From a virus, in the IMG/VR virus record IMGVR_UViG_3300028592_000019, positions 1-50,807 of that record: DNA of 50,807 bases. The stretch is one strand, 5' to 3'. The notes below the pieces were generated by a model. That model was not told where the DNA came from, ran no database searches, and saw only the letters and a list, made by a program, of their open reading frames with translations. Shown in pieces: positions 1 to 47,735 of this stretch (position 1 is the first letter of the stretch; the number at the start of each line of letters is the position of its first letter). Made by a program: the position numbers and the translations under genes.

Positions 1-401
1 GCAAAGCGCTGGGCGTGTCCCGCGGCGCCGTGGGCAATTGGGAACTGGACAAGGACATCGGCAAAGACAACCTCCTCGCCATCGCGAAAGAGTGGCGCGT
101 GAGCCTGGATTGGCTGATGAACGGGAAAGGCGACGCGCCGGATCGCGACGACATCCTCGGAACAGAAGTTTTCAAGGACAATGCGCCCAAGGCGTATTCA
201 ACCTTCGATCCCGACGAGGACTGGAAGCCAGAGACAGAGTTTGAGGGCGAGGCGTATACCCGCGAGATGTGGACGCCGCGCCAGCCTGGCGCATTGCCGG
301 AACTGGATCTCAAGGTCGGCGCCGGCGAAGGTTCTGTGGGCGATATCCTCGTGCTCGAGCACAAGGGCCATGCCTACTCTGGCCATCGTATCGTGGACGA
401 A
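1..401 (+). repeat. Left copy of 401-bp terminal direct repeat
   Basis: This stretch matches 50407-50807 at 383 of 401 positions. The first 125 bases are identical; all 18 differences follow. Fifteen are synonymous in the repressor frame and three change residues (two Asp to Glu, one Arg to Leu). The pattern shows two natural variants of one gene, not read error. It implies a circular genome of 50,406 bp, or tandem related prophages. Confidence 0.95.
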
Positions 402-8215: not shown

Positions 8216-8487
8216 GGCTGTCTGCTCCACCAAAGCGCATGTTGAGTAAGGACGAGGCCGCGAGCTATTGCGGCTTCACCTCTACAGCACGCTTCGAATC
8301 CGCCGCCCGACCGCATGTCCCGCCTGTGAATTACGGCAACTGCGTCCGCTATGACCGTGTCCGCCTCGACGAATGGCTAGACACAATGACCCAATCATCG
8401 GCATCTGATGATAGCGACATCATCGGAGCCGCCTTCCGTGCTGGTAAAGATCGTGGGCATAAAGCAATACACCGACCGGCACGGTAA
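8212..8487 (+). CDS. Probable excisionase / AlpA-like HTH protein
   Basis: A 91-aa protein with a winged-helix start: Met-Leu-Ser-Lys-Asp-Glu-Ala-Ala-Ser-Tyr-Cys-Gly-Phe near residue 10, then Pro-Pro-Val-Asn-Tyr-Gly and Arg-Tyr-Asp-Arg-x-x-Leu-Asp-Glu-Trp-Leu, the pattern of MerR/AlpA-type HTH proteins. It overlaps the integrase start by 80 bases in another frame, the usual xis-int arrangement. Confidence 0.78.
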   Translation: MRLSAPPKRMLSKDEAASYCGFTSTARFESAARPHVPPVNYGNCVRYDRVRLDEWLDTMTQSSASDDSDIIGAAFRAGKDRGHKAIHRPAR

Positions 8488-9610
8488 GCTCAGGCGCTAC
8501 TACCGTCGCAAGGGCTGTCCGCAGGTGGCCATCGACCCTAGCCTGACCGGCGCCCAACTGGCTGCCGAAGTCGCCCGCCTCGATGCCCTTTACAAGCCCC
8601 ACGCCATGCGCGCCGGCACGCTCCGAGTGCTGCTCACTGAATACCAAGAGAAGTCAGCCCACTGGAAAGGCCTGCGCGACCGCACGCGGCAGGACTACCA
8701 GCGCGTATTCGACATCATGGGCGACACCCTCAACCATGCCCTGACGCGCTTCACGCCGCCCCTGATCGCCGGCCTGCGCGACGCCGCAGCCGAGGCGCAC
8801 GGCTTCAAGTTCGCCAACCAGATGCTCGTCAGCCTAGGCAAGGTCTTTGCCTTCGGCGTCGAATATGGCCACGTCCAGTCCAATCCCACGGCCGACATCT
8901 CGAATGTGGCCCGACCGGCAGACTTGCCAGATGCGAACCGACCGTGGACGCCTGAGGAAGCCATCAACCTCCTCGCCGCGCCCATCCATCTCGCGGCCCC
9001 GATCGCCATGGCTGCGTATCTGGGCCTACGCGAAGGCGACATCATCAAGATGTCCAAGGGGGCGATCACTGAGCGGCTTTTGAGCCTCACGACGAGCAAG
9101 ACCCGCCGGGCGCTCGAATTGCCCGTCTGTGATGATCTCTGGGCAATCCTGAAGCGCTACAACGCGTGGCGAGAGGCGCTATGGGACGAGCGGCGCCGAA
9201 AGGCGGACGCGAAGAACTCTCGCGAGGATATCCAAGACCTGGTGATGACGATGTTCGTCAACACGCGTGGCAAGGCATGGACCTCGGATGGCTTCAGGAC
9301 TTCATGGGGGAAATGGCGCGACGAAGTTGAGGAGGCCAAGAAGGTCGGCCCCGGCATCACGTTCCATGGCGCGCGGCATGGCGTGGCAACCGTTCTCGCT
9401 GAGTGCGGATATGAGCCGCAGCAGGTGAAGCATCTCTTGGGCCATGGCAGCGAGACCATGACCGAGCATTATCAGCGCCGGGCCAAGCGCCGCGGCATGC
9501 TCAAGGATATGACCGACGCCGTGCAAATGGCCTATCGAAACGCTGGCCAAAGCACTGTTGTCGGGTTAGACACCTTCCCGGTTCGTTCCGCCGAAAACGG
9601 GCAAGGTTAG
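8408..9610 (+). CDS. int: Tyrosine integrase
   Basis: A 400-aa recombinase. N-terminal arm-binding region to about residue 65, SAM-like core-binding domain about 75-165, then catalytic domain: Gly-Leu-Arg-Glu-Gly-Asp, Phe-His-Gly-Ala-Arg-His-Gly, Leu-Leu-Gly-His-Gly and Tyr of Glu-His-Tyr, giving Arg, His-x-x-Arg, His and Tyr nucleophile. ATG 8408 is the longest start; GTG 8438 is an alternative. It ends beside a tRNA-Trp type attP, and its last codons contain two of four arm-type repeats. Confidence 0.95.
   Translation: MIATSSEPPSVLVKIVGIKQYTDRHGKLRRYYRRKGCPQVAIDPSLTGAQLAAEVARLDALYKPHAMRAGTLRVLLTEYQEKSAHWKGLRDRTRQDYQRVFDIMGDTLNHALTRFTPPLIAGLRDAAAEAHGFKFANQMLVSLGKVFAFGVEYGHVQSNPTADISNVARPADLPDANRPWTPEEAINLLAAPIHLAAPIAMAAYLGLREGDIIKMSKGAITERLLSLTTSKTRRALELPVCDDLWAILKRYNAWREALWDERRRKADAKNSREDIQDLVMTMFVNTRGKAWTSDGFRTSWGKWRDEVEEAKKVGPGITFHGARHGVATVLAECGYEPQQVKHLLGHGSETMTEHYQRRAKRRGMLKDMTDAVQMAYRNAGQSTVVGLDTFPVRSAENGQG
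9564..9578 (+). repeat. attP arm-type site 1 (P arm)
   Basis: GGTTAGACACCTTCC inside the integrase 3' end. It shares GGTTAGAC-(A/G)-N-TCC with three other copies in the same orientation around the tRNA-Trp core. Likely bound by the integrase N-terminal domain. Confidence 0.75.
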
Positions 9611-9823: not shown

Positions 9824-10093
9824 CTACCATATCCATCGCGTCGACCGATCCGGAATGTGCGGCGGGTTCTGTATTCTGACGGTCGCTTCTCGCGCTCCGC
9901 ATCTGGCACAGACGAATTGCCTCAAGAACCATTTGTGGCGTGAGGAAATCTCAAACTCCCAGCCGAAACGCTGGATCAGCGACGACACCGAGATTTCGGC
10001 GTTGTGATAGCAGGGCTGGCCGGTCTCGGGATCACGCGCCTCGCAGTAGACATTCAGCCTGAAGCCGTGCTCAAGCATGTTCCGGAGCTGCAT
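9824..10093 (-). CDS. Small zinc-ribbon-like protein
   Basis: ATG at 10093 has GGAGG upstream and gives 89 aa. It starts Met-x-Leu-Arg-Asn-Met-Leu-Glu-His-Gly-Phe-Arg-Leu and has Cys residues in Tyr-Cys-Glu, Pro-Cys-Tyr-His and Cys-Ala-Arg-Cys-Gly, fitting a zinc ribbon around a helical middle (Ser-Leu-Ile-x-Arg-Phe-Gly-Trp-x-Phe-Glu-Ile). I associate this type with small proteins of unknown function in rhizobial genomes. It is the last gene before attP, the place where lysogenic cargo sits in a prophage. Confidence 0.72.
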   Translation of the reverse strand: MQLRNMLEHGFRLNVYCEARDPETGQPCYHNAEISVSSLIQRFGWEFEISSRHKWFLRQFVCARCGAREATVRIQNPPHIPDRSTRWIW

Positions 10094-10157
10094 GGAAACC
10101 TCCGCAGAGGCTCCAACTGCTACAGCGAGAACGCATGGAGAACAAGGCGGCGACAAA

Positions 10158-11087
10158 TCACTTGTCGATCTCGATGGCCTGAACGGTCGCGTGCCGGAGC
10201 TTGTCGCTGCCTTTGAGGTGCCGAACCGTGGCCCGCATTCCCGGCCGTAACCATGTGGCGGTCTTGCGGCCAGTCCCAACGATCGGCGGCTGCGATACGC
10301 CGCTGAGCTCCACATAGCGCCAGAACACATCACGCAATGACTTTGGCAGCGATACAAAGGCTGCGCCGCGATAGCCCACGCCATCGGCCAACAGGGCGTA
10401 GGGAACGCCGTCTCGGTCCTTATCGACGCCTATGACGTCGAACGTCTCGGTGTGCCAAGCCTTGATCTTGAGCCACGATCTCGTCGCCCCGGAGACATAG
10501 AGGCTGCCCTTACGCTTCGAGACAATTCCCTCAAGACCCATCTGATCGACCAGCTTGAAGAAGTCAGCGCCGTCCCCATCGTACTCGTCGGACATGTGGA
10601 TCTGGCTATGAGTGCCTTCTAGAATCCAGCGAAGATGGGCGCGGCGTTCTTCCAGTGGCTTACGGCGCATGTCGACGCCATTGAGGTGCAACAGGTCGAA
10701 GGCGAAGAAGATCAGCCGCTCCGGCGTCTTGGTCATGGCACTGCGTAGAGCGCCGAAGTCGGTGACCCCATGCTCGTTCTGAACACACACCTCGCCATCA
10801 ATCAGCGCAGATCGGCAGTCTATGCGAGCGGCGCCCGCAACGATGCGCGAATATTTCTCGGTCCAGTCATGACCGTTGCGCGTGTAGGCACGGACCTCGC
10901 CGCCGCCAATGGCTAGCTGAGTGCGGTTGCCGTCGTACTTGATCTCATGCAGCCATTCGCCGCCGTCCGGCGGTTCATCGACAAGCGTCGGCTGCATGGT
11001 CGGGATGAACTTCGGTAGGATGAGGGTAGATTCAGAGTCTGTGCGGGATCGCCGCTTTGTGCTGGGGGCCGGCGTCAGCGCGGCCAT
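10158..11087 (-). CDS. ATP-dependent DNA ligase (LigD/LigC ligase-domain type)
   Basis: A 309-aa ligase. Motif I Glu-Ile-Lys-Tyr-Asp-Gly-Asn-Arg with Lys50 as the adenylated residue; Asp-Gly-Glu-Val motif near 98; Phe-Phe-Ala-Phe-Asp-Leu-Leu motif near 127; Glu-Gly-Ile-Val-Ser-Lys motif IV near 185; Trp-Leu-Lys-Ile-Lys motif V near 205; a C-terminal OB domain. The sequence is closer to the bacterial NHEJ-type ligase domain than to T4/T7 ligases. No Ku gene is seen. It lies downstream of the lysis genes and is separate from the replication operon. Confidence 0.92.
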   Translation of the reverse strand: MAALTPAPSTKRRSRTDSESTLILPKFIPTMQPTLVDEPPDGGEWLHEIKYDGNRTQLAIGGGEVRAYTRNGHDWTEKYSRIVAGAARIDCRSALIDGEVCVQNEHGVTDFGALRSAMTKTPERLIFFAFDLLHLNGVDMRRKPLEERRAHLRWILEGTHSQIHMSDEYDGDGADFFKLVDQMGLEGIVSKRKGSLYVSGATRSWLKIKAWHTETFDVIGVDKDRDGVPYALLADGVGYRGAAFVSLPKSLRDVFWRYVELSGVSQPPIVGTGRKTATWLRPGMRATVRHLKGSDKLRHATVQAIEIDK

Positions 11088-11143
11088 GGCAAACTCTGGT
11101 ACATGGCCGACTCAATGAGCAGGACGCGAATCAGTTCCGGCGC

Positions 11144-11506
11144 TTAGCCGCGATCCTTCAACTGGCGCTGGACCTCTTCGGCGATTTCCTTCTCCCGCCG
11201 CTCTTCCTCGATCTGGCCGTCGATGGTGTTGGCCAGGCGGTTGATAGCCTTCGCCGTCGCCTCAGCATGAATGTTGGCCTTGATCTGCTGCTGTACGAGG
11301 AGCCCTACCCCTTCGACCAGCTCTTTGACCGGCCCCATGTCATGGAGCGCGCCAGCCGCGTAAAACTCCTGAACCTTAGGCGCTTCCGGGCCAGCCTTCT
11401 TACCGCGCAGATAGCTCAGGGCCGCGCCCCCGGCGCCGACCACGATAAAGACCACGAGCGCCAAAGGGCGCCACTCGACAGGTATTTGGTCAAGAAAGTC
11501 CAACAT
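11144..11506 (-). CDS. Small membrane protein with coiled coil, lysis region
   Basis: ATG 11506 gives 120 aa. One transmembrane helix at about residues 14-32, followed by a soluble part ending in a charged helix (about 90-118, Glu/Arg/Lys rich). It may be a holin partner or i-spanin-like protein; the topology alone cannot decide. It overlaps the upstream gene by 17 bases. Confidence 0.7.
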   Translation of the reverse strand: MLDFLDQIPVEWRPLALVVFIVVGAGGAALSYLRGKKAGPEAPKVQEFYAAGALHDMGPVKELVEGVGLLVQQQIKANIHAEATAKAINRLANTIDGQIEEERREKEIAEEVQRQLKDRG

Positions 11507-11954
11507 TGCGGGCCGCACCTTTGGAGGCTCTACCGATCGTGAATAGGACGTGCAGCGAGCACCAAAGGTCCAAGACGAGAGGCAACTGATATATTCCTGC
11601 GCCCGACGTGTTGGCGGCGCTGACGGAAAGGTAGACGACGAACCAGACGATGGCGCCGAGGCCAGCAGTCCCACCCCTCACCCATGGCGAAACCGCCGAG
11701 TACCAGGTGTCGGCAAAGGTGCCGTTGACGATCAGCGCCAGCAGTCTGAGGGTGCCGATGGCGACACATATCCAGCCCCACGCTTCCTCGGATGGCCCGA
11801 GGGACAGCATGAAGGCCCAAGCGTCTGTGTTCGACCATTGGACAGACGGTGCCGTGAGGCGCGAGCCCCACCACACGATGTTTACGGCCATGACCCATTC
11901 GAGAACGCGCTCGGGGAAATGCCGCTGAATGCCGGTGACGACGCGGATAAACAT
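11490..11954 (-). CDS. Polytopic membrane protein, lysis region
   Basis: A 154-aa protein with three or four hydrophobic segments (about 20-40, 58-78, 93-112, 120-138). It has several Trp at segment ends. No family is certain. It is coupled by one base to the holin-like gene, so it probably acts at the inner membrane during lysis. Confidence 0.72.
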   Translation of the reverse strand: MFIRVVTGIQRHFPERVLEWVMAVNIVWWGSRLTAPSVQWSNTDAWAFMLSLGPSEEAWGWICVAIGTLRLLALIVNGTFADTWYSAVSPWVRGGTAGLGAIVWFVVYLSVSAANTSGAGIYQLPLVLDLWCSLHVLFTIGRASKGAARNVGLS

Positions 11955-12355
11955 CAGCGCCTCCCAATTGCGCGCGCCGCGAAGGCGCCAGCATCGGCAA
12001 TGACGATGGCCGGGACCAACACCAGAGCCATGTCATGAATTCGGGCGGGCACGTCGATAACAACCAGGTCGAGACCGAACCATGGGTTGATGATCTGAAC
12101 GAGATAGATCGCAGCCCACCAGAGGCCGAAGGGGACGACGATGAGCCACCGGCCAACGGAAGTTGCCGACCACGCCCTGCCCGCTTCGATGACGGCAATG
12201 TCACGCGCCGCCTCGAGCTTGGCGATCACCTGCTCGGCAGCAAGCCGGTCGGCGTCATTCTGGGCGTTGAGCTTCGCTTGGTAGGCCGCCAGCAGCGGCC
12301 CGGTGAACTGTTTGATGACGCCGCCCCCGAGCCAGTCGAGGATGGCCCTAAGCAC
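11954..12355 (-). CDS. 3TM-type holin
   Basis: A 133-aa protein. An amphipathic N-terminal helix (Leu-Asp-Trp-Leu-Gly-Gly-Gly), a charged Lys/Asn/Glu-rich segment to about residue 55, then hydrophobic helices at about 65-87 and 98-120. This arrangement matches the 3TM holin family also found in gene transfer agents and alphaproteobacterial phages. It would form the lesion that releases or activates the endolysin. Confidence 0.75.
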   Translation of the reverse strand: MLRAILDWLGGGVIKQFTGPLLAAYQAKLNAQNDADRLAAEQVIAKLEAARDIAVIEAGRAWSATSVGRWLIVVPFGLWWAAIYLVQIINPWFGLDLVVIDVPARIHDMALVLVPAIVIADAGAFAARAIGRR

Positions 12356-12656
12356 GGATCACCGCCTTGGTCTCGCCATTCTCGATGACCTTGATCGTCG
12401 ATGGATCAGAGGTCTCGCTGATCGCCATCTTCACCTGGACCTCAGGATCCGATGCGACTGACGCCGGCCGCGGCCGCATCCAGACGTTGAGGATGATCAC
12501 CGCAAGGGTCACGTACGGCATGAAGCGGGCCGGGATGACGCTGCTCCAGTCGAAGCCAAGTAGCGCCACCAGCAACTCGGGCGTCAACAGGATGACGAAG
12601 ACCACGTTGACGAACCATGTGCGCCAGCGGACGAGGGTTTCCCAGAGTTTGCTCAA
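12348..12656 (-). CDS. Small membrane protein, lysis region
   Basis: A 102-aa protein with two hydrophobic helices (about 14-34 and 43-60) and a soluble C-terminal tail. It overlaps the holin start by eight bases and follows the endolysin stop without a gap. Similar genes sit beside GH108 endolysins in rhizobial phages; probably part of the holin system. Confidence 0.7.
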   Translation of the reverse strand: MSKLWETLVRWRTWFVNVVFVILLTPELLVALLGFDWSSVIPARFMPYVTLAVIILNVWMRPRPASVASDPEVQVKMAISETSDPSTIKVIENGETKAVIRA

Positions 12657-13418
12657 TTAGGCCTCCTTGGCCACGGCAGAGAGCGCCTGAGCGCGCTGCG
12701 CATTGATGACGGTGCGGATGATGAAGATGCCGGCGACGATGACGACGCCAGCGATGACGAAACCGATGGGCAGACCGGAGAGACCGTTGACCTGATCGGC
12801 AGTTCCGGTGCCGACGGTGACCGCTGCGCCGCCGCCCTGACCGACAGCCTTACCCGCGGCATCCTTGGCGTCCTGTTCGAGCTGCGCCTTGGTGCTGACC
12901 CAAGACAGCGCTTTAGCCTCGACCCCCGCCACGCGGCGGCCCCAGCCGTTCTTATAGGTCTGCCAGATGGCCAAGGACTGGAGGAAGCCCAGCCGCTTGG
13001 CGCAGTGGCCCTTGATGACGGCGCGCGGGCTGGCGGCCTTCGCTGCCAAGATGGTTGCGGGACCGATGCGCCCATCGACGGTGACGCCGAGCACGCGTTG
13101 CAGATCCTTTGCCGATCGCGACACGCCAGAATTGACGCCATAGTCCCAGGTGGACAGGTCGACACCCGCAGGCAGTTCATCGCCACGGATCGGAACCCAG
13201 TACTTGCCGTGATAGATGTCGGCGATCTGGTTGTCGTTCAGGGCCTTGATATCGAGGTGCGGGAATGCTGCGGCTGAGATACCCTTTTTCGTCCCCTTGA
13301 GCACGCCGGCGCCGCGCTTGCCGCCTGTCCAATTGCCCGGGTCCCTTGGGTCGGCGGTATAGCCACCCTCGTGCACGAGCACGTCTTTCAGCGCTGGCTG
13401 AAAGTTGCCTTTGGCCAT
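12657..13418 (-). CDS. GH108 endolysin with C-terminal membrane anchor
   Basis: A 253-aa protein with AGGAGG ahead of ATG. The N-terminal motif Val-His-Glu-Gly-Gly-Tyr with Glu17 and Asp-Pro-Gly-Asn-Trp-Thr-Gly-Gly is the N-acetylmuramidase signature; a peptidoglycan-binding type 3 domain follows (Val-Thr-Val-Asp-Gly-Arg-Ile-Gly-Pro near 115). After an Ala/Gly-rich linker there is one hydrophobic helix at about 214-236 and a short cytoplasm-like tail. The C-terminal anchor is unusual for a soluble endolysin and suggests the enzyme is held at the membrane until lysis. Confidence 0.9.
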   Translation of the reverse strand: MAKGNFQPALKDVLVHEGGYTADPRDPGNWTGGKRGAGVLKGTKKGISAAAFPHLDIKALNDNQIADIYHGKYWVPIRGDELPAGVDLSTWDYGVNSGVSRSAKDLQRVLGVTVDGRIGPATILAAKAASPRAVIKGHCAKRLGFLQSLAIWQTYKNGWGRRVAGVEAKALSWVSTKAQLEQDAKDAAGKAVGQGGGAAVTVGTGTADQVNGLSGLPIGFVIAGVVIVAGIFIIRTVINAQRAQALSAVAKEA

Positions 13419-38436: not shown

Positions 38437-38973
38437 TTACAGACCGTGTGCCCTTTGCGTTGCAATCCCATAGAGTTGCGCCAGGTCGTTCAAGCTGTCC
38501 CTGAGATTGTCGGCCATGGTCAGCTTCGCCCGCTGATCCGTGCTTATATCACCAAATGACAATCCCTGCCCGCACACCTTGCAGACCAAGGCATAGTTGC
38601 GCGCACCGAGGAGCATTCGGCACGCCCTGAGATCGCTTGCGGCCACCACGACGCGCTCGCTGATAGGGTCTCGTGCACCGCCTCCATCGACATGGGTGCG
38701 GCTGTAGTCCATTGCCCCTGCCCCCGCCCCTCCACAGGCTTCCCACGTCGCCCTGAAGCGGTCTGCGGCTTTCTTCTGAGCCTCGTCCAGCTTACCCCTG
38801 GCGAATAGCGTCTCGATTGCCGATTCCCGCAGGTTCTTCGTGACCTTGATCTTTCTGGGATTGCTCGAGCTGACGGGGTGATCGGTGGTGAAATACGGAT
38901 TGTCCGCTTCGACCGTCACCTCGTCGGTCTTGGGCGTGATCTTGAACTGTGATTTGAATGGGGTGCGTTTCAT
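38437..38973 (-). CDS. DUF6456-like protein, last gene of early-right operon
   Basis: A 178-aa protein. Basic N-terminal 60 residues, then Ala-Ala-Asp-Arg-Phe-Arg-Ala-Thr-Trp, Asp-Tyr-Ser-Arg-Thr-His-Val-Asp and Leu-Gly-x-x-Asn-Tyr with two Cys in Cys-Lys-Val-Cys-Gly, then an Asp-Asn-Leu-Arg-Asp-Ser-Leu-Asn-Asp-Leu-Ala helix. This matches the C-terminal DUF6456 pattern of alphaproteobacterial phages. Its place at the end of the early operon is that of late activators such as Q or RinA, a possible but unproven role. Confidence 0.65.
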   Translation of the reverse strand: MKRTPFKSQFKITPKTDEVTVEADNPYFTTDHPVSSSNPRKIKVTKNLRESAIETLFARGKLDEAQKKAADRFRATWEACGGAGAGAMDYSRTHVDGGGARDPISERVVVAASDLRACRMLLGARNYALVCKVCGQGLSFGDISTDQRAKLTMADNLRDSLNDLAQLYGIATQRAHGL

Positions 38974-39344
38974 CCGAGAATAGCCTTAAAAATGTCGTCG
39001 CGCGCTGTGGTTTCGAGAATGGCTTGGCACAGGTCTTGGATATCCATGCCCCGCCTTTCCGCCTCGGCATCGATCATGGTCCGGTGGATGCCGCTGAGCG
39101 GCACCGGGACCGCGGCATAGGTGTGTTCTGTGGTGGTTACCGAGTATTCCCAATGCGACCACATGGCGGTGATCATGTTGGGCTGGACACCATCGGCCAG
39201 GCGATCGCATATCCGCTGCGCCGTGAGCCCGCGGCCGGTGTGCACGCCGATCCAGAAGGCCCGCTTGTTGCTCCATCGCTCGGCAAATAGCGGCGCCCCG
39301 AGCCGGGGTAGTTCTTCTCCGAAGAGGTTGGTGTCGTGGGCCAT
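38970..39344 (-). CDS. GcrA-like HTH protein
   Basis: ATG 39344 in a TGATG overlap gives 124 aa. Residues 25-60, with Phe-Trp-Ile-Gly-Val-His-Thr-Gly-Arg-Gly-Leu-Thr-Ala-Gln-Arg-Ile followed by Asp-Gly-Val and Asn-Met-Ile, fit the GcrA-type HTH that in Caulobacter reads methylated promoters. The C-terminal part has a ribbon-helix-like Ile-His-Arg-Thr-Met-Ile-Asp-Ala-Glu-Ala. The assignment rests on pattern only. Confidence 0.6.
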   Translation of the reverse strand: MAHDTNLFGEELPRLGAPLFAERWSNKRAFWIGVHTGRGLTAQRICDRLADGVQPNMITAMWSHWEYSVTTTEHTYAAVPVPLSGIHRTMIDAEAERRGMDIQDLCQAILETTARDDIFKAILG

Positions 39345-41737
39345 CAGAACGGAGGCTCCGATGATGATGCCAGCTCGCGCTTCACGTCCTCTGGAATGCC
39401 CGCTCCGGGCTGCTCCTGTGGTCGCTCCTGCTCCTGATGACGTGGTGGTCGTGGTCGATCGCTCTTGCCGGTCCACCAAACGATGCGTTTGTCGTTGTCC
39501 CGACCCATGTAGCCGGCATTGATCAGCGCCATGGTGGTGCGGCTCAGGAAGTCGGCCAATTCCTTCTGCCGAGCCTCCTGTTCGTCCTCTGGTGCCTTGA
39601 AGCTCATGCGCTTGCGGACCTGCGCTACAAGGGCGCTCTGGGCCACGCATTTACTCACTGAGCCCGCTTCGACACCTTGGGGAATGTCCTGCCCATGATC
39701 GGCCTGCGCAGCCACCAGCGCGTCGAATACGAGCTTATTGCCGCCCTGCAGCCTGGTGACGTCCTCCTGCTGCTCGTGCTGGCTATGCTTCGCCGGCCGC
39801 GCGCAGATCATGGTGGTGAATGGCTCGCCGTCCTCGTCCAGTTCGTTCAACGTCACCGGCTCCAACACGAAGGCCCACGACTTGTTGCCGACGCCGTTCT
39901 TGTTCTTGGCGAGACGGGCCCGACGAATGGGCTGGCCATTCCCATCAAGGGCTGGCTTGGGATCTTCGCGCTTGTTCGGCGCCGGGATCATCTGCTGGCG
40001 GAGCTCGATCACGTTCGGCACGTTGGCCACCAGAGCCGTGGAACCGCGCACCTTGGTGCCGCCTGCATTCATGTGGTGGACTACAGCCACGGTCGCGCCT
40101 GTGCGCTCCCTGATGCGGTTGATGCGGCCCAGCACCTTGCTCGCCTCGCCGCTGCTATTCTCGTCCATGCCCTCTGTGGCCATGGAGAGCGTGTCGATGA
40201 TGATGAACTCAAGGCTGCCATAGTAAGCCTTCCACTCAAGGCACTCGGCTATGAACCGGTCGACCACGGCGTCGTCCATGAGCGTGAAGCCCGTCCCGCC
40301 ATTCGCGAACGGGTCCATCACGACATATGGGATATCGGCGTCTGGGCTGATGCCCTGCGCCTTCAGACAGCCCTTGAAGCGCAGTTCGGTGCCCTTGCCG
40401 TCTTCGACAGCCATGTGGATCACAGCGCCCTGCCTGACCTTATGGCCGGCATAGTCGAGGCCCCGGGCGATCTTCATGCCCATGTCCATCACGAGGAACG
40501 TCTTGCCCGCCATGCTCTCGCCGGCAAGAATCATGATGCCGTTGCGCTCGATCAGGTGCTTCACCAGCCAGTCATAGACCACTGGCTTCTTCGCAATGGC
40601 CCCGCTGGTCTGGGCTCCGAATGTGGAGCGGGGAGGCTTCTGTCGATAGGTCGGCAACTCGTCAAGGATGGCCTGCAACTGCTCGCCGTTGCCGCCGAAC
40701 TTCTCCACCCAGTCCGTGATGTCGCCCTTGTGGTCGAAGCCCGGAACATGATCGGCGAAGTTCAGCACACGGATGCGGCGCGCGATCCCCTTCATGGATT
40801 GGGCAAGTTTGTCCGCGCGGTCGCCGGCAGCATCATTGTCGAGGCAGATCACAACATCAGCGTCACGGAAGCAGGCGGCATGGGCATCGGTCCAGTGCTT
40901 CGACCCGCTTGAATTGGTGGTGCCGCAAAAGCCCAGCCTGTCTGCGGTTTGGGCATCTTTCTCGCCCTCGGCCAAGATGATAGTCCGGCCATCGGCAATG
41001 GCGATCTCCACCTGTGGGTGGTTGAATATGGTGTGCTCAACGCCTTGGGGGAATCGGCGTGTCTCGCCATTGGGCCAGCCCTGAAACTTGTCATGGTCAT
41101 AGGCCGACCAGTCCTTGCCCGGGCCGGGACGCATGAAGTCGCCTGCCGACAGACCCCATACCCATGACCCATCACCAAGGCCGGATGGTCGCCGCTGCAA
41201 GAACGTCTTCCATGTGCCGGCGCCGTCCTTCGTCAAGGCGAACGATCGGTCTGGCATCCTGATCTGGAACCGGCAAACCTGATAGAGCAGGTTCCCGTCG
41301 CGATCTGGATAGTCGTAGGTCGCGACCATCTCGCGCTTGCCTTCGGCAGCGAGAGGCTGTGGCGGCGTTTTGCTTTGCCGTGGCTGTTCCGGTGGTCGGG
41401 CTGGCCTCCCGTCGCTGGCGCTGTTCTCTGGCAGCGCAATGCCGCCGGTGCCAGCAACTTCGCCAACAGCCGTTGGGAAGTCGACGCCCTTCAGGGCCAT
41501 GAGGAATTGGAAGTGGTCGCCAGAAGCGCCACACCCGAAGCAATGGTAGCGACCCTCTTGCCCATCGGCATGGAAGCTGGGGCTGTTCTCATTGTGGAAC
41601 GGGCAGCATGCCCAAAGATCATTGCGACCCGGGTTGGACTTGCCGTTATCCCAAACGACATGCTGGCCAACCACATCGGTGATCGGCACGGCTGCGCGTA
41701 TCTCGTCTAGGAGGGTATCGGGGAAGCGGTCGATCAT
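39344..41737 (-). CDS. Primase-helicase (CHC2 zinc finger, TOPRIM, RecA-like ATPase)
   Basis: A 797-aa replication protein. Zinc finger Cys-Cys-Pro-Phe-His-Asn-Glu near 44 and Cys-Phe-Gly-Cys-Gly near 66; TOPRIM Glu-Gly-Glu-Lys-Asp-Ala near 257 and Asp-Asn-Asp-Ala-Ala-Gly near 297; RecA/RepA-type ATPase with Gly-Glu-Ser-Met-Ala-Gly-Lys-Thr near 406 and Ile-Ile-Ile-Asp-Thr-Leu near 513, His-His-Met-Asn near 555. The Gln/Pro-rich end is probably flexible. It would prime and unwind phage DNA. Confidence 0.93.
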   Translation of the reverse strand: MIDRFPDTLLDEIRAAVPITDVVGQHVVWDNGKSNPGRNDLWACCPFHNENSPSFHADGQEGRYHCFGCGASGDHFQFLMALKGVDFPTAVGEVAGTGGIALPENSASDGRPARPPEQPRQSKTPPQPLAAEGKREMVATYDYPDRDGNLLYQVCRFQIRMPDRSFALTKDGAGTWKTFLQRRPSGLGDGSWVWGLSAGDFMRPGPGKDWSAYDHDKFQGWPNGETRRFPQGVEHTIFNHPQVEIAIADGRTIILAEGEKDAQTADRLGFCGTTNSSGSKHWTDAHAACFRDADVVICLDNDAAGDRADKLAQSMKGIARRIRVLNFADHVPGFDHKGDITDWVEKFGGNGEQLQAILDELPTYRQKPPRSTFGAQTSGAIAKKPVVYDWLVKHLIERNGIMILAGESMAGKTFLVMDMGMKIARGLDYAGHKVRQGAVIHMAVEDGKGTELRFKGCLKAQGISPDADIPYVVMDPFANGGTGFTLMDDAVVDRFIAECLEWKAYYGSLEFIIIDTLSMATEGMDENSSGEASKVLGRINRIRERTGATVAVVHHMNAGGTKVRGSTALVANVPNVIELRQQMIPAPNKREDPKPALDGNGQPIRRARLAKNKNGVGNKSWAFVLEPVTLNELDEDGEPFTTMICARPAKHSQHEQQEDVTRLQGGNKLVFDALVAAQADHGQDIPQGVEAGSVSKCVAQSALVAQVRKRMSFKAPEDEQEARQKELADFLSRTTMALINAGYMGRDNDKRIVWWTGKSDRPRPPRHQEQERPQEQPGAGIPEDVKRELASSSEPPF

Positions 41738-42093
41738 GCGATTTCCCGAACTTTTAGAGCGTCATAGGCGTCAGACCATCGGGCCAATCCGCTGGTGCAC
41801 TGCCAGCCGTTAGCCTTGAGCAGGCGGATCAGGCGCCGATATTCGTGGTACGGCAGCACGTAGCCATTCCAGCACCAGTTCCCGACCCAGTAGGCCATCG
41901 ACCGATAGCGGAAGGTCTGGCGATGAATGCGGATAGTGTGATCGTCGCCTTGGGCGAACTTGATCTCACCGACATGAGTGCGCTCGATGTCCATCTGCCA
42001 AGAGCCGATATCGATGCTGATGCTCTCGACCTTGCCCGCGAAGTCGCCGTGGCCATCGTTGCAGGCAAAACAAACTTGGACGAACCTGGTCAT
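41734..42093 (-). CDS. Hypothetical protein with Trp/Tyr-rich domain
   Basis: ATG 42093 in an ATGA overlap; 119 aa. Cys-Phe-Ala-Cys-Asn-Asp near the start, then a beta-rich part with Tyr-Trp-Val-Gly-Asn-Trp-Cys-Trp-Asn-Gly-Tyr-Val-Leu and a helix with Arg-Arg-Leu-Ile-Arg-Leu-Leu. I recognise no family. It may assist the primase-helicase it is coupled to. Confidence 0.75.
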   Translation of the reverse strand: MTRFVQVCFACNDGHGDFAGKVESISIDIGSWQMDIERTHVGEIKFAQGDDHTIRIHRQTFRYRSMAYWVGNWCWNGYVLPYHEYRRLIRLLKANGWQCTSGLARWSDAYDALKVREIA

Positions 42094-42401
42094 GCCGCTT
42101 CCGCCTGCTCTGCCGGCGCCGGGCGCTCGATCTCTTCCTTCACCCACAGCATGAAGGCTGCGAACTCATTCGGCTTGGCTTTCTGCAATTGAAGAAGGGC
42201 CTCGAAATCATCGGGGGCGGCGCCGAAATCGTTCAGGATGCGCCATGCATCCCGCAGGCCATCCATGTGCAGGTTGTGGGCCCGGCGCATGTCGCCGCTG
42301 GTGTCCATGCTCTCGTAGCGCTGGAAGTCGCGTTCGGTGCGCTTCGACACCGTTTCGATCTCGTCCAAGGCCGCGATGATGCGCTTGCGAAGGGGCTTCA
42401 T
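42090..42401 (-). CDS. Hypothetical helical protein
   Basis: ATG 42401; 103 aa, nearly all charged helix (Lys-Arg-Ile-Ile-Ala-Ala-Leu-Asp-Glu-Ile-Glu, Met-Asp-Gly-Leu-Arg-Asp-Ala-Trp). ATGA overlaps at both ends. No family. Confidence 0.72.
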   Translation of the reverse strand: MKPLRKRIIAALDEIETVSKRTERDFQRYESMDTSGDMRRAHNLHMDGLRDAWRILNDFGAAPDDFEALLQLQKAKPNEFAAFMLWVKEEIERPAPAEQAEAA

Positions 42402-42790
42402 GGCTGAAGCTCGATGCCAACATGGGCGGCGATCTGGGCTCTCGATTCCCGAGGCAGCTCGTACCCTTTGCCCCATAAGGTGTTGATATCGGCACCGATC
42501 CCGCGAAGGGCCACGCGGAGCTTGCACACCTGGACTTGGATTATTTTGATCTCGGGCTGATCGAGGCGATCACCGTAGATCGCATGGAACATCTGATCAT
42601 GGGTTTTGCCTTTGCAGTCCCACAAGACCCAGAGAACGCGAGCCGTTGAAGGCATGACCTGAAATGCCTTACGAACCGCATCGATAAACGCCGGCTCCGG
42701 GTCATAGCGAAGCTGACGGCGCAGTTCAAAGTTCTCAGCGCTCAGGCGCTCGTTCTCTTTACGCAGGGCGACGAATGCTGCCTCGTTCAT
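42398..42790 (-). CDS. CtrA/OmpR-type winged-helix protein without receiver domain
   Basis: ATG 42790 gives 130 aa. Residues 1-28 are a leucine-rich heptad helix; 45-112 are a winged helix close to the CtrA DNA-binding domain: Met-Phe-His-Ala-Ile-Tyr-Gly (67-73), Gln-Pro-Glu-Ile-Lys-Ile-Ile (78-84), Val-Cys-Lys-Leu-Arg (88-92) and the wing Thr-Leu-Trp-Gly-Lys-Gly-Tyr (104-110). There is no phosphorylation domain, so it would act independently of the host phosphorelay. It lies next to the N6-adenine methyltransferase gene. Confidence 0.82.
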   Translation of the reverse strand: MNEAAFVALRKENERLSAENFELRRQLRYDPEPAFIDAVRKAFQVMPSTARVLWVLWDCKGKTHDQMFHAIYGDRLDQPEIKIIQVQVCKLRVALRGIGADINTLWGKGYELPRESRAQIAAHVGIELQP

Positions 42791-43413
42791 GGCGCTTTCC
42801 TTCCGACCAAATGGGTGACATCGACGCCGTGATCGAAGTCGAGAACTGGCTGCGACCGGAGCGGCAAATAAGCCTTCTCGGCGGGCCCGCGGCGTTTCCG
42901 CCAGTCCCAGACGAACCATGAATGGTTCTCGGTGGGGCCATTTTCCTTTTGCGGAACATTGGTCCACCGGATGCGCCGGGTAAGGCGGTACTCGACGGCA
43001 AAGGCCGGATGCTGATCGAAGAGGTGACGGCGGCCATCGGCGCTGTCGAAGCCGACCTTCAAGAGCATTGCCACCTTGCCGCCGTGGAACTCTGTGAGGC
43101 GAAGGGCATGCTCAATGAACCGCACAGCAAGGCGTGACTGAACGCCGTAGGGCGGGTTCGAAACGATGTCGTAGCCATTGGCGTCCTCGCACTCGAAGAA
43201 GTCGAGACGCTGGACGAAATCACTGTCGGGCTCGATGTCAGATGCCCACACCGTCATGGTCGATGGCAGTGACGACACAATCGCGCCGTCGCCGCCGGCG
43301 GGGTCCCAAACCTTGTCGAAGCTCTCCGCCGCGATCAGGGCTTCGATCACCCATGCCGGGGTGAAATACTTCTCGTTCTGGATACGGTCGTAGGTGGAAG
43401 CGCCGACGGTCAT
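42787..43413 (-). CDS. N6-adenine DNA methyltransferase
   Basis: A 208-aa enzyme. Motif I Asp-Pro-Ala-Gly-Gly-Asp-Gly at 37-43 binds S-adenosylmethionine; Asn-Pro-Pro-Tyr at 86-89 is the catalytic loop for exocyclic amino methylation. No partner nuclease gene is present, so it is an orphan enzyme for self-protection or gene control. Coupled with the CtrA-like gene by ATGA. Confidence 0.87.
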   Translation of the reverse strand: MTVGASTYDRIQNEKYFTPAWVIEALIAAESFDKVWDPAGGDGAIVSSLPSTMTVWASDIEPDSDFVQRLDFFECEDANGYDIVSNPPYGVQSRLAVRFIEHALRLTEFHGGKVAMLLKVGFDSADGRRHLFDQHPAFAVEYRLTRRIRWTNVPQKENGPTENHSWFVWDWRKRRGPAEKAYLPLRSQPVLDFDHGVDVTHLVGRKAP

Positions 43414-44450
43414 GGCCGAATTGCCTCCTCAACCATGTCCGCCGCCGCCGGAAATGCCTTACGGGCGGCAAGCAACTGCTTTTCCGTGCCGATCCATGCA
43501 TACTGACGCTCGCCCGTCAGGCGGGTCCCTGACATGTGGAGAAACTGTCCTCGACCAAGATGCTCGCGCAGATAGAACCGGCCTGATGGTGCCTTGCGTG
43601 GCCTATGCAGCACGTCTGAAACATCGTTCTCGACCAGAGGGCGCAGCCGCTCGCTTGGCTTGCTCAGTGGCGGCAGTTCTGGGGCTGGCTGGGTCTGTGG
43701 CTCGTCGGATGGCGCTCCGGCCTCTGGTGGCTCCTCTGCCGCTTCCTTGGCCCATTTCGATGCCGTGCCGAGCGAGCAGCCAGCTTCCGCCGCGATCTGC
43801 CGAAGGGTCCAGTCCGGATGGGCTGCGACGACAGCGAGAACCTTGTCGCGCATGTTCTCTGGCGGGGTACGTGGCGCTCGTGGCAGCTTCAGGCTGAGAT
43901 GGCTCGCCATGACCTGAATGTGCTGCACGCCGAAGCCGAGGTGTTCGGCTATCTGGTGCGAGGTCCAGTCTGGGTGCTCTATATGGCAGGCGCGGACCTG
44001 TTCGCGCTTGGTCATGCGAGGGGATGGGGCGGCGGGATGGATCGCACTTTCGTCCTGCATCCCGCCGGAGGCATCGGCAGACGCCTCCTGTTCCGAGGTC
44101 TTTGCTTCCACTGGCCGACGCATTTCCTCATCGTCGGGGAGCGGCTTAGGAGCCTCGGGAATGAGCGTGACGGGATTTCCCGCCACGGAATTTTCGACGG
44201 GCGCAGAAGCCAGGGAGGAGGAGACCTCCGCGCCCGTCGTGTCGCCCGCCGCTTGGGAAGCGGGCGTATCGGCAGCCGGCGCATGAGGCTTGGAGGGAGC
44301 CTCCGGCTGCGATGGGGTGATGCATGGGCGCAGGGCCGCGATGATCGCGCACTGGCTCGTGCGGTATGTCTTGGCCTGCTCGGCGATGAACACGCCGAAG
44401 TCGAGCGTCACTGTGGTGGCGTCGTGGGCTGCGAGAATTGGGCTGATCAT
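43410..44450 (-). CDS. Double-HTH protein with disordered N-terminal half
   Basis: A 346-aa protein. Residues 45-145 are Pro/Ala/Glu-rich. Then come two HTH-like repeats with the same beginning: His-Pro-Asp-Trp-Thr-Ser-His-Gln-Ile-Ala near 158 and His-Pro-Asp-Trp-Thr-Leu-Arg-Gln-Ile-Ala near 212. The C-terminal 70 residues form another small domain with Gly-Arg-Phe-Tyr-Leu and Trp-Ile-Gly-Thr-Glu-Lys. Likely a DNA-binding protein of replication or transcription. Confidence 0.7.
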   Translation of the reverse strand: MISPILAAHDATTVTLDFGVFIAEQAKTYRTSQCAIIAALRPCITPSQPEAPSKPHAPAADTPASQAAGDTTGAEVSSSLASAPVENSVAGNPVTLIPEAPKPLPDDEEMRRPVEAKTSEQEASADASGGMQDESAIHPAAPSPRMTKREQVRACHIEHPDWTSHQIAEHLGFGVQHIQVMASHLSLKLPRAPRTPPENMRDKVLAVVAAHPDWTLRQIAAEAGCSLGTASKWAKEAAEEPPEAGAPSDEPQTQPAPELPPLSKPSERLRPLVENDVSDVLHRPRKAPSGRFYLREHLGRGQFLHMSGTRLTGERQYAWIGTEKQLLAARKAFPAAADMVEEAIRP

Positions 44451-45664
44451 GCCGCGGCCCTCTCGGTATCCAGATAGGCTGCGATCACTTCCGCCGCGGC
44501 TTCCGGTACGATTGCATTGCCGCCAACGCGCCAGAGATCCACTCGGCCGGGAAGCCCATCAACCAGAAGGCGAATACTGGGTTCGGCGCGCCGCGCTTTG
44601 CCGTCGTGGCAGAGGAGCCATTCGGCGTCTGACCAGTAGGTTCCGTTGCGGCGATCGGACCGGACAGTCGCTCGTCCATCTGACCCGGCAGCAACAAGAA
44701 CTTGCGACCGCCGCTCATTTGGTAGCCCCGACCCTGCGCATCCACCACTGACGTCGTCGCCCACATCGCTTGTGGCGGCTGAGCCATCTGGCGCGGCAAC
44801 TGGTCGACCCTGTTCCGGTCTCCCGACTCCGTCGCCATGCCAGCGCTGTCCTTCCAGTCTCGTGCCGAAGGCGTCACCCAGGGTGACGCCTGGGCTGGTG
44901 CAGTTTGCACAGATGGTTGACATGCCCCCGGGGAAGAATGGGCCAACGCGTCCGCTTCCGCCGCAGGCTGGGCACTCGCCATTACGAACCCCAGATTGGG
45001 GCTGTTCCTGTTGGCCTCGCTGGGCGCTGGCCCTCTCTCGCCCTCGCTCGCCTTCACCGCAGGCCATGTGGATTGATGCATTTGCGCCGGCAGGGGTTGG
45101 CCACCCGCCCCGAAACTCTGGTTGGGCGAGCCCTTTTCCCCGTCGCTGGCTCGCGGCGTGCTCCACTGCGATCCAGTAGAGTCGGTTCCGTTGGTGTGGC
45201 GCGTCGACACTGCAAGCCGGGAAATCAACCGCCCGGCTGGCGTATCCTTCGCTCTCCAGATCAAAGCGGACTCCGTCGAACCAACCGTACCCAGCCGCTC
45301 CCGCAACCTGCTCTCCCATGACGACAGCGGGCCGTCGGGCACGGATGAGGCGATGAAAGTCCGGCCACAAATGCCTTGGATCATCGGTTCCGAGCCCTTT
45401 GCCGGCCGCCGAGAACGGCTGGCACGGACAGGAGCCGGTCCAGAGTGGTCGGTCGTCAGGCCATCCAGCAAGTCGAGCTGCGACGGACCAGAGGCCCCCG
45501 CCGGCGAAGAAATGGCATTGGGTGTAGCCGTCGAGGTCATCGGGCATCACTTCCTTGATGGAGCGGGTGTCGACATCGCCCGGCGCCAGAACACCGTCAT
45601 CGATGAGCGCGCGGAGGATATGCGCAGCGGCATGGTCGAATTCGTTGTAGTAGGCGCGGGCCAT
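44447..45664 (-). CDS. C5-cytosine DNA methyltransferase
   Basis: ATG 45664 gives 405 aa. Motif I Phe-Phe-Ala-Gly-Gly-Gly at 52-57, motif IV Gly-Ser-Cys-Pro-Cys-Gln-Pro-Phe-Ser with Cys81 as nucleophile, motif VI Gly-Glu-Gln-Val-Ala near 118, motif VIII Gln-Arg-Asn-Arg-Leu-Tyr-Trp near 160, and motif X Gly-Asn-Ala-Ile-Val-Pro near the C-terminus. The target-recognition region (about 190-350) is Gly/Ser/Arg-rich and poorly globular in this frame, where a second gene overlaps in another frame. Confidence 0.9.
   Translation of the reverse strand: MARAYYNEFDHAAAHILRALIDDGVLAPGDVDTRSIKEVMPDDLDGYTQCHFFAGGGLWSVAARLAGWPDDRPLWTGSCPCQPFSAAGKGLGTDDPRHLWPDFHRLIRARRPAVVMGEQVAGAAGYGWFDGVRFDLESEGYASRAVDFPACSVDAPHQRNRLYWIAVEHAASQRRGKGLAQPEFRGGWPTPAGANASIHMACGEGERGRERASAQRGQQEQPQSGVRNGECPACGGSGRVGPFFPGGMSTICANCTSPGVTLGDAFGTRLEGQRWHGDGVGRPEQGRPVAAPDGSAATSDVGDDVSGGCAGSGLPNERRSQVLVAAGSDGRATVRSDRRNGTYWSDAEWLLCHDGKARRAEPSIRLLVDGLPGRVDLWRVGGNAIVPEAAAEVIAAYLDTERAAA
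44485..45540 (-). CDS. Overprinted gene within the cytosine methyltransferase (+1 frame)
   Basis: A 351-aa ORF entirely inside the methyltransferase gene, same strand, shifted one base. ATG 45540 has AAGGAAG about nine bases upstream. The protein contains Trp-Val-Thr-Pro-Ser-Ala-Arg-Asp-Trp-Lys, Thr-Gly-Ser-Gln-Trp-Ser-Thr-Pro and, near its end, Phe-Trp-Leu-Met-Gly-Phe-Pro, motifs I have seen in proteins annotated alongside phage C5 methyltransferases. An open frame this long with such motifs supports real dual coding. Function unknown. Confidence 0.6.
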   Translation of the reverse strand: MTSTATPNAISSPAGASGPSQLDLLDGLTTDHSGPAPVRASRSRRPAKGSEPMIQGICGRTFIASSVPDGPLSSWESRLRERLGTVGSTESALIWRAKDTPAGRLISRLAVSTRHTNGTDSTGSQWSTPRASDGEKGSPNQSFGAGGQPLPAQMHQSTWPAVKASEGERGPAPSEANRNSPNLGFVMASAQPAAEADALAHSSPGACQPSVQTAPAQASPWVTPSARDWKDSAGMATESGDRNRVDQLPRQMAQPPQAMWATTSVVDAQGRGYQMSGGRKFLLLPGQMDERLSGPIAATEPTGQTPNGSSATTAKRGAPNPVFAFWLMGFPAEWISGALAAMQSYRKPRRK

Positions 45665-45666
45665 GG

Positions 45667-46182
45667 CTAGGCGCTCCTGCGCTTGGTTTGATGGAATGCG
45701 AGTTCGGGGAGTTGCTGGGCCGCCATGTGCGTCCACACCGCGAGGGCCATGCAGCGCTCGGTCACAAGGTCGTCCATGCTCACCCACAGGCGCCGTCGGC
45801 TTTCCTGTTTCACGGCCCGGACGGCTTCGGCGGCGTTGAGGCTGGCTTGCCCGGTATAGGTGCCGATCGCCTCGCCAAAACTCACGCGCTTGGCAACGCC
45901 AGGGAGGATGCCCTTGACCACGGTCCGGGCGACCACCTGCAAATCGCGCAACCGTTCAGCATCGCTGGCGATCAAGGCAACTGCTGAGATGGCTATGATC
46001 TCCGGCTTGTGGGCATCGATGGCCTGATAGATTTTGGTCTGCGCGTTGCGCCAGACCTCATCCTCGATATTCGACGGACTGCCGAACGTCAGGACGCCCG
46101 ACAGCGGCTTTTCAGCACCAGGCCTACCGAAGGCCCATCCAGCGCCCAAAGGGGCAAGGCTGAGTGCAAGAACGGGTTTCAT
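45667..46182 (-). CDS. RuvC-fold protein with degenerate active site
   Basis: A 171-aa protein. The first strand, Leu-Ala-Leu-Ser-Leu-Ala-Pro-Leu-Gly-Ala-Gly-Trp-Ala, has the shape of a RuvC first strand but Ser replaces the catalytic Asp; the second strand (Ile-Ile-Ala-Ile-Ser-Ala) lacks the usual Glu. C-terminal Trp-Val-Ser-Met-Asp-Asp remains. It lies 5' of the Dcm-like gene and is coupled to the true RuvC-like gene, so it may be its inactive partner. Confidence 0.6.
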   Translation of the reverse strand: MKPVLALSLAPLGAGWAFGRPGAEKPLSGVLTFGSPSNIEDEVWRNAQTKIYQAIDAHKPEIIAISAVALIASDAERLRDLQVVARTVVKGILPGVAKRVSFGEAIGTYTGQASLNAAEAVRAVKQESRRRLWVSMDDLVTERCMALAVWTHMAAQQLPELAFHQTKRRSA

Positions 46183-47068: not shown

Positions 47069-47271
47069 CGCCGCGCCCTCTTGGTGATGCCGGCGGCGCG
47101 GGTGCGCTTCCAACGACGACGGGTGCGGGTTCCGGTCGAGTGCGATCGACCAGCCTTGCTGCCGGTGGGCGACAGGATGGATGAAGGAAGGTCGACGAAG
47201 TCAGGAGCGGCAGCAAGGCCGACACCGAACGACGAGGCGAGCATGGCGCCGATGATTGAGCCCATCCGCAT
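47065..47271 (-). CDS. Small protein with hydrophobic N-terminus and basic tail
   Basis: A 68-aa ORF whose ATG overlaps the previous stop (TGATG) and whose stop overlaps the next ATG. N-terminal 20 residues are hydrophobic (possible signal or membrane anchor), the last 25 are Arg/Lys/Thr-rich. The perfect fit in the coupled chain is the main support. Confidence 0.6.
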   Translation of the reverse strand: MRMGSIIGAMLASSFGVGLAAAPDFVDLPSSILSPTGSKAGRSHSTGTRTRRRWKRTRAAGITKRARR

Positions 47272-47735
47272 CAGTTCACCGTGTTCCCGGCAAGCTCGTT
47301 CAGCGCTTCGGCGCCCGCTGCCTGCTCTTCGTCGGTGACCTTCTGGATCGCTGCGCGCGCCGCGATTGCTGCAGCTTCGCCGGGCGTCGATACCGACTGC
47401 CCTTCGACCGGCTTGAACATGCTCATTTGGCCGCTGGCTTCGACGTACATCTCGACCAGATCGTCACCGACCGATTCCGCGTTCTTTTGAAGAAGGCGCT
47501 CGAGCTCGCGCTGGCGCAGAGCGGCGCGTACAATCTTCTGCGGGATACCGAGCTCCTTCTCCCGCGACTTGATTAGGGTCTGCTCGCGCTTCTTGATGTT
47601 TCCGGCTTTACCCCGCGCCGAAGCGAGGATTTCTTGGGCCTCGCCTCGCATCTCCTCGACTTCACCAACGAGATTTTCGAGGTCTTCCGGCTCATAGCTG
47701 TTGCGCCGCTGTTCTACTGGCTTTGCCTTGCTCAT
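47271..47735 (-). CDS. Coiled-coil protein, possibly GapR/DUF2312-like
   Basis: ATG 47735; 154 aa. Residues 15-115 are long charged helices; Glu-Leu-Gly-Ile-Pro-x-Lys-Ile-Val-Arg-Ala-Ala-Leu-Arg-Gln-Arg-Glu near 63-80 and Met-Tyr-Val-Glu-Ala-Ser-Gly near 98 recall the helix order of GapR, the alphaproteobacterial nucleoid protein. Similarity is weak by eye. Confidence 0.55.
   Translation of the reverse strand: MSKAKPVEQRRNSYEPEDLENLVGEVEEMRGEAQEILASARGKAGNIKKREQTLIKSREKELGIPQKIVRAALRQRELERLLQKNAESVGDDLVEMYVEASGQMSMFKPVEGQSVSTPGEAAAIAARAAIQKVTDEEQAAGAEALNELAGNTVN

Follow-up and report, generated by a model that had tools for sequence, protein, structure and literature searches.

Does a temperate phage carry a copy of the cell-cycle circuit of its bacterial host? 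The question is raised by the IMG/VR virus record IMGVR_UViG_3300028592_000019, a stretch of 50,807 nucleotides that was analysed whole and is called the window here. An earlier reading of its letters, the original prediction, had placed a receiver-less CtrA-like protein, a GcrA-like helix-turn-helix (HTH) protein and an N6-adenine methyltransferase in one operon, with perhaps a GapR-like protein in addition, and had taken the set for a copy of the host CtrA-GcrA-CcrM circuit. Our analysis upholds part of this view. The replication operon has an exchangeable slot that gathers methyltransferases and DNA-binding parts of host cell-cycle regulators, and we propose that these are used on the cell cycle of the host, a reading that we regard as evenly balanced between right and wrong.

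A near-complete temperate phage makes up the window, because its terminal ~400 bases repeat each other, with differences, and because it encodes an integrase and a CI-like repressor (Table 1) as well as a RecT-like protein, a ligase and a Holliday junction resolvase. In named genomes, relatives of its primase were found in Devosia and Pelagibacterium (loci L021-L023), and searching reached more copies in Devosiaceae genomes (L166, L210 and L224). From the position of these primase relatives we infer a host among the Devosiaceae, which are soil bacteria of the Alphaproteobacteria.

In this study, we examine the operon and the slot within it, the proteins concerned, and the DNA sites on which they might act. 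Related loci of other phages and the genomes of candidate hosts were compared with the window, and the rival explanations for the slot are weighed together.

Results

A slot with exchangeable contents in the replication operon

Eight genes run from 44450 down to 38437 with successive overlaps of 4, 4, 4, 4, 4, 1 and 4 bases, in the order HTH gene, methyltransferase, CtrA-like gene, two small genes, primase, 38970 gene and 38437 gene (Table 1). This chain, primase/helicase included, is a translationally coupled operon. The open reading frames of the original prediction were all recovered where it had placed them, on the minus strand, and the overlaps of 1-4 bases confirm that its CtrA-like, GcrA-like and methyltransferase genes belong to one operon.

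Table 1. Coordinates of the features in the window, with strand and basis of assignment.
Coordinates	Strand	Feature	Basis
15-731		CI-like repressor
8408-9610		Integrase
38437-38973	-	Gene overlapping the 38970 gene by 4 bases	phrog_21451, 1.1e-59
38970-39344	-	124-residue protein, putative GcrA-type HTH (~18-67) and ribbon-helix-helix domain (~73-124)	Profiles, model
39344-41737	-	Primase/helicase (DnaG zinc ribbon, Toprim, AAA_25)	Pfam AAA_25 2.5e-28, Zn_ribbon_DnaG 9.8e-23
41734-42093	-	Small gene	4-base overlap with primase; no useful E-value in Pfam, PHROGs or NCBIfam
42090-42401	-	Small conserved gene between slot and primase	57% to L008, 95% to L016; also in L014, L210
42398-42790	-	Receiver-less CtrA-type winged-helix protein, 130 residues	Pfam, NCBIfam, tree
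42787-43413	-	DNA methyltransferase, 208 residues, DPAGGDG and NPPYG motifs	phrog_799, 9.8e-43
43410-44450	-	HTH protein, upstream edge of slot	HTH_32 29.6 bits, HTH_23 23.1 bits, both below cut-off
47271-47735	-	GapR-like helical protein, remote similarity	hhalign 58%, P 1e-4

The productive search for related loci was a primase scan of viral sequences. As single queries in the viral scan, the 38970 protein and the methyltransferase each returned 1 locus and the CtrA-like protein 0, and PDB sequence searches with single window proteins gave nothing useful. The comparison took in 13 non-redundant loci in which the primase is related and a gene stands upstream at the 43410 position: the window, L008, L009, L010, L011, L012, L014, L015, L016, L022, L166, L210 and L224. 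A hidden Markov model (HMM) found relatives of the 43410-44450 gene upstream of the primase in 11 further loci; in L224 the HMM missed the upstream gene, whose place was assigned by reading. Duplicates were dropped (L021, identical to L015; L023, identical to L010; L013, a piece of L014; and L017, which shares sequence with L008 and is without the upstream part), as were loci that had no slot or were too distant (L002, L018-L020, L024/L170 and L225).

In the window, the slot is filled by an NPPY-type methyltransferase together with a CtrA DNA-binding domain; it contains no true GcrA. True GcrA (PF07750, 60.4-127.4 bits; cut-off 26.9) is encoded in 9 of the 13 loci (L008, L010, L011, L012, L014, L016, L166, L210 and L224), where it lies in the slot at which the window has its CtrA-like gene, a feature of the relatives that the original prediction overlooked. 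The CtrA domain is present in three loci (window, L011 and L166) and a DNA methyltransferase in 11; weaker calls among the latter are those in L010 (below the family cut-off), L012 (made by reading) and L224 (HMM of the window enzyme, 1e-6). All three kinds of gene meet in two loci. L166 has, in a row, a methyltransferase (61% to that of the window), GcrA (116.9 bits), a CtrA domain and a D12 methyltransferase; L011 has GcrA (127.4 bits), a CtrA domain and a Dam-type methyltransferase. Six methyltransferase types occur in the slot of this lineage: the phrog_799 type, N6_N4, MT-A70, C5, Dam and D12. Around the slot, the 38970 family adjoins the primase, behind it, in 13/13 related loci, and a GapR-like family lies upstream in 12/13, the L022 contig ending before that region.

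A CtrA-type DNA-binding domain without a receiver

The CtrA-like protein is made up of a heptad-like N-terminal helix (residues ~1-27) and a CtrA-like DNA-binding domain (~47-112). Its description as receiver-less and CtrA-like proved correct: Pfam Trans_reg_C matches the winged-helix domain only, at 27.5 bits (cut-off 26.2), the top NCBIfam model is CtrA (1.4e-8; runner-up 1.7e-3), and a receiver domain with a phosphoacceptor aspartate is not present by Pfam or NCBIfam. The score against the CtrA model NF045991 is far below the full-length cut-off (34.8 versus 350 bits) because the protein is without the receiver.

Matches to the protein at E<=1e-6 occur in 125 of 136 Devosiaceae genomes, at a single place in 121 of these; in three of these genomes the CtrA response-regulator model has 25-31 matching places per genome. 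The single place is host CtrA in all three genomes searched both ways (G001-G003). Across the order, 23 of 397 genomes match at E<=1e-8. In a tree of 44 domains, a split supported at 100/99 sets 21 receiver-less domains and 8 host CtrAs apart from 15 other regulators; the row nearest to the window domain is L166 (92/86). The receiver-less relatives had been collected by similarity to the window and the rows chosen among the collected loci; the tree separates the CtrA type from other regulators and is not a full history. By these sequence comparisons the phage domain is of CtrA ancestry, and no other regulator of the OmpR type in the comparison is as close to it as CtrA.

Ten of 12 receiver-less CtrA N-termini exceed their own shuffles in heptad pattern at 0.02 or less; the values for the window and L236 are 0.036 (3.6% of shuffles reach the score) and 0.052. 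This pattern suggests that a short heptad-like helix, a putative coiled coil, stands in place of the CtrA receiver. In OmpR-type regulators the recognition helix contacts DNA. It reads KIIQVQVCKLR in the window and KIIDVFICKLR in the host CtrAs compared, with Q replacing D and F.

A methyltransferase outside the CcrM family

The window enzyme has no Pfam family above cut-off. Its S-adenosylmethionine (SAM) motif DPAGGDG precedes NPPYG, and in the beta class of CcrM the order is reversed, with DPPY before FxGxG. Because of this opposite order, and because neither PF01555 nor PF18755 (N6_N4_Mtase plus RAMA, as in CcrM) matches at E<=1, we rule out a CcrM homologue; as a counterpart of CcrM by family, the enzyme did not bear out the original prediction. 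That it is a DNA methyltransferase stands on its phrog_799 match, and the predicted N6-adenine target is probable from the NPPY motif and the relatives.

The enzyme is 35% identical to phiN3 gp208 (YP_009212452), listed among the homologues of GANTC-specific phage enzymes by Decewicz et al. 2017 (PMC5537653). To phiLM21_p027, for which the same paper gives a GANTC specificity, that of CcrM, it is 30% identical over 142 residues (pairwise E 6e-9). Homology to these two proteins makes a GANTC, and thus CcrM-like, target plausible.

A probable GcrA-type HTH joined to a ribbon-helix-helix domain

What the original prediction called a GcrA-like HTH protein resembles GcrA remotely and is not a member of its family. 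In hhalign, a profile of 14 relatives of the 38970 protein aligned with the GcrA profile at 74% (P 2.7e-5) with the HTH in register; seven other profiles reached at most 0.6%, and the best P among 60 column-shuffled decoys was 0.065. The AlphaFold model (mean predicted local distance difference test score 63.5; 71.3 for a second model) consists of a three-helix N-terminal half plus a C-terminal half. With this model, Foldseek ranked the Caulobacter GcrA DNA-binding domain 5yiu first of 350,542 chains (probability 0.99, 43 columns, root-mean-square deviation 1.0, but E 0.3), and in VIA-align residues 18-67 gave Z 6.3 to 5yiu, within 1 of Tc3 and Myb-like domains.

Family membership is ruled out: there is no GcrA match in Pfam (E<=1), NCBIfam or PHROGs, PF07750 matches none of nine family members, and the protein is without the C-terminal GcrA domain, its Cys-rich motif (CKWPxGDP...FCG...PYCxxH) being absent here and found in host GcrA and most sister-phage GcrA copies. 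The second half of the protein had been overlooked. In VIA-align, residues 73-124 matched TacA1 (7.2), CopASO (7.0) and AmrZ (6.5), which share the ribbon-helix-helix fold; PF21983 (NikA-like), which matches three of nine family members, we take to be a ribbon-helix-helix family as well, and if so it agrees with the C-terminal half. Remote similarity and a moderate-confidence model thus point to a protein in which an HTH of the GcrA type is combined with a ribbon-helix-helix domain. It has not conserved the TRNAVIGKVHRL stretch of host GcrA, and its DNA target may therefore differ from that of GcrA.

GANTC sites and CtrA boxes

GANTC occurs 44 times in the phage against ~197 expected (ratio 0.22), a stronger depletion than that of any other among 16 such palindromes. 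The ratio is 0.44 in host loci, 0.19-0.40 in sister phages, 0.46 in a Rhizobium phage and 0-0.02 in Roseobacter and Paracoccus phages with CtrA-like genes (L004, L005 and L006, with 1, 0 and 0 sites against 48, 53 and 11 expected). Four of the window sites fall within ~100 bases (11029-11132) where the ligase gene (10158-11087) begins; the uniform p is 0.004, post hoc and with strong depletion elsewhere in the window, and the ligase gene of phiLM21 showed no such cluster. In L224, a 100-base stretch from 14684, behind the 38970-type gene, also has four GANTC sites.

CtrA boxes (TTAA-N7-TTAA, counted throughout with up to one mismatch) number 3 in eleven sister loci, where 4.65 are expected, and 13 in twelve other CtrA-domain loci, where 2.85 are expected. 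Of these 13, seven come from L242 alone, a locus richer in AT, and elsewhere none is near the CtrA-domain gene; we therefore did not accept the excess as autoregulation.

Similar sets in other loci and in the hosts

Among 22 other receiver-less CtrA loci (L167, L168 and L226-L245), one divergent subfamily takes ~10. Within the stretch examined around each locus, a GcrA-type match is nearby in 4 (L167, L227, L238 and L241) and a GapR-type match in 5 (L168, L230, L236, L238 and L242). In L236, a CtrA domain, Dam and GapR (114.9 bits) are found next to a phage-type DNA polymerase; in L238, GcrA (27.3 bits) and a CtrA domain are accompanied by a ParB-like gene and a GapR-type protein; L170 combines GcrA, a GapR-like protein, a methyltransferase and a primase. 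ParB-like genes (phrog_1033) directly adjoin the receiver-less CtrA genes of L168, L227 and L238. The hosts encode CtrA (4/4), GcrA (4/4), GapR (3/4) and a methyltransferase of the CcrM type, with the RAMA domain that CcrM bears (5/5).

The GapR-like protein and other neighbouring genes

For the protein that had been called perhaps GapR-like, the remote profile similarity is a weak indication, with hhalign controls of at most 0.3% and a P of 0.01 for the best of 60 decoys. A bridging protein of L170, weakly above the GapR cut-off with its neighbours, aligns at 90% with GapR and at 96% with the phage family. The family model and the fold gave no agreement: PF10073 (GapR) does not match the window protein and is reached, at 0.0098, by one of nine family members, and the model of the protein has no GapR structure or PDB fold match. 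A relationship to GapR is possible, if weakly indicated.

Upstream of the slot, on the minus strand, lies a C5 methyltransferase gene (44447-45670; phrog_363, 2e-68). A 351-residue open reading frame on the same strand (44485-45540) overlaps it in a different frame and matches phrog_1008 (1.2e-17) and phrog_31772 (3.2e-12); an equally long open frame survives in 3.7% of synonymous-codon shuffles, and dual coding of the pair is possible. In L014, the primase (10001-13309) has an insertion of ~310 residues at window-primase residue 256, perhaps an intein.

Discussion

Copying of the host circuit, as the original prediction had it, survives in part. The true GcrA genes of sister loci, the CtrA domain in three of the 13, the methyltransferases and the homology to a GANTC enzyme speak for it, more strongly than the genes of the window could by themselves; CcrM homology and GcrA family membership fell away, and the GapR link is weak. 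In this lineage of temperate Devosiaceae phages, the slot that lies between HTH gene and primase collects DNA methyltransferases with GcrA, a CtrA DNA-binding domain, or both. The mechanism we propose runs as follows. The CtrA piece, without receiver or phosphorelay input, would act constitutively as a helix-mediated dimer and occupy host sites (the CtrA regulon or the origin) in competition with host CtrA, and the methyltransferase would change methylation at GANTC or another motif. Both would presumably act on the host without checkpoint control, and the outcome would be a host that goes on permitting DNA replication once a prophage is induced or a cell infected. Such phages may, on this sequence evidence, interfere with the timing of the host cell cycle.

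A stricter form, which we think unlikely, is an exchangeable, checkpoint-free slot for writer and readers beside the primase, in which a methyltransferase with a CcrM-like target and CtrA and GcrA domains stripped of their control domains would together uncouple the host origin and the CtrA/GcrA regulon from the cell-cycle phosphorelay while the phage replicates. If this were true, a coiled coil would have replaced the CtrA receiver and a ribbon-helix-helix domain the C-terminal domain of GcrA.

Several observations count against a role in the host cell cycle. L014 and L022 have no methyltransferase, the slot of L022 being almost empty, and L009 and L015 have methyltransferases with neither GcrA nor a CtrA domain. 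The window enzyme shares 30% identity with phiLM21_p027, and its GANTC specificity is a prediction. Owing to the changed residues of its recognition helix, the CtrA-like protein may differ from CtrA in DNA specificity. GANTC depletion is ruled out as a mark of the cassette, since host DNA and every phage locus tested show it too. The phage genome has no CtrA box (0.8 expected), which rules out action through canonical boxes on its own DNA; the targets would therefore lie in the host, if the domain keeps the specificity of CtrA.

The same genes might instead serve the phage alone, as regulators of its transcription or copy number, assembled from widespread DNA-binding parts, beside a methyltransferase that shields phage DNA from restriction, leaving host timing untouched. 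We find this conceivable but would not expect it. The altered recognition helices of both DNA-binding proteins, relative to CtrA and GcrA, are in keeping with it, as is the rank of GANTC among the 16 palindromes, and the variety of methyltransferase types in the slot is what anti-restriction would predict. Anti-restriction leaves unexplained, however, why the partners of the methyltransferases are true GcrA and CtrA domains, members of one host circuit. In Caulobacter, DNA binding by GcrA depends on N6-adenosine methylation (PMC3667746).

It is also imaginable that the slot is a moron hotspot in which regulators and methyltransferases arrive independently and have no joint function. Its contents do differ strongly among relatives, down to the nearly empty slot of L022 and the regulator-free slots of L009 and L015. 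Yet the gains repeat from one small set (GcrA in 9/13 loci, the CtrA domain in 3/13), the slot genes of the window are translationally coupled, and similar sets return in other phage backgrounds (L236, L238 and L170), and we consider an accidental assembly quite improbable.

Three features look new: a linked cassette whose parts are interchangeable, a coiled coil standing where the receiver would be, and the fusion of a GcrA-type HTH with a ribbon-helix-helix domain. Phage-borne GcrA, CtrA domains and GANTC-methylating enzymes are already known singly, and we found no description of a linked cassette of CtrA domain, GcrA and methyltransferase in the openly licensed literature (CC0, CC BY, CC BY-SA). 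Linkage, exchangeability and the tie to a replication operon make the older idea of a phage-steered host cell cycle directly testable, and the loci offer natural combinations for comparison: methyltransferase with CtrA domain, methyltransferase with GcrA, and all three. Being small and constitutive, a CtrA domain free of its receiver might in addition serve as a tool in studies of the CtrA regulon.

Comparison with known systems

GcrA homologues have been reported in phages as phiCbK gp222 (PMC3556154), Atu_ph08 gp5 (PMC6630229) and in phiLM21-like prophages (PMC12429752), and were proposed to raise host replication functions. The sister phages described here share PF07750 GcrA with them, whereas the window has no PF07750 protein and its putative GcrA-type HTH is fused to a ribbon-helix-helix domain. 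The available portions of those papers report single genes and describe no set in which GcrA is linked to a methyltransferase and a CtrA domain. The phages RDJL Phi 1 and Phi 2 of Roseobacter, with CtrA annotated in GenBank, likewise have a receiver-less CtrA-like domain near replication genes (L005), but they are different phages, the CtrA domains are 37.5% identical over 72 residues, and within the 12 kb examined RDJL Phi 1 has no methyltransferase or GcrA annotated.

Like the window enzyme, its distant homologue, phiLM21_p027 and its relatives are small methyltransferases with an NPPY/F/W motif, upstream of replication genes and unrelated to CcrM (PMC5537653). The GANTC specificity of phiLM21_p027 is published; for the window enzyme, 30% identical to it, a GANTC target is a prediction. 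GapR was reported in the genome of Erythrobacter phage R34L1 (PMC12185513), whereas the window protein has no match to the family model, and T4 DsbA has been described as homologous to GapR (PMC7824862).

Host CtrA acts on phage promoters or is needed for infection in other systems (PMC9437464, PMC10589892). In one of them it controls phage promoters and lytic deferment (PMC9437464), which, like the locus studied here, ties CtrA to the timing of phage genes in Alphaproteobacteria. There, host CtrA works on phage DNA; here, a phage whose own DNA is free of CtrA boxes encodes the CtrA domain itself.

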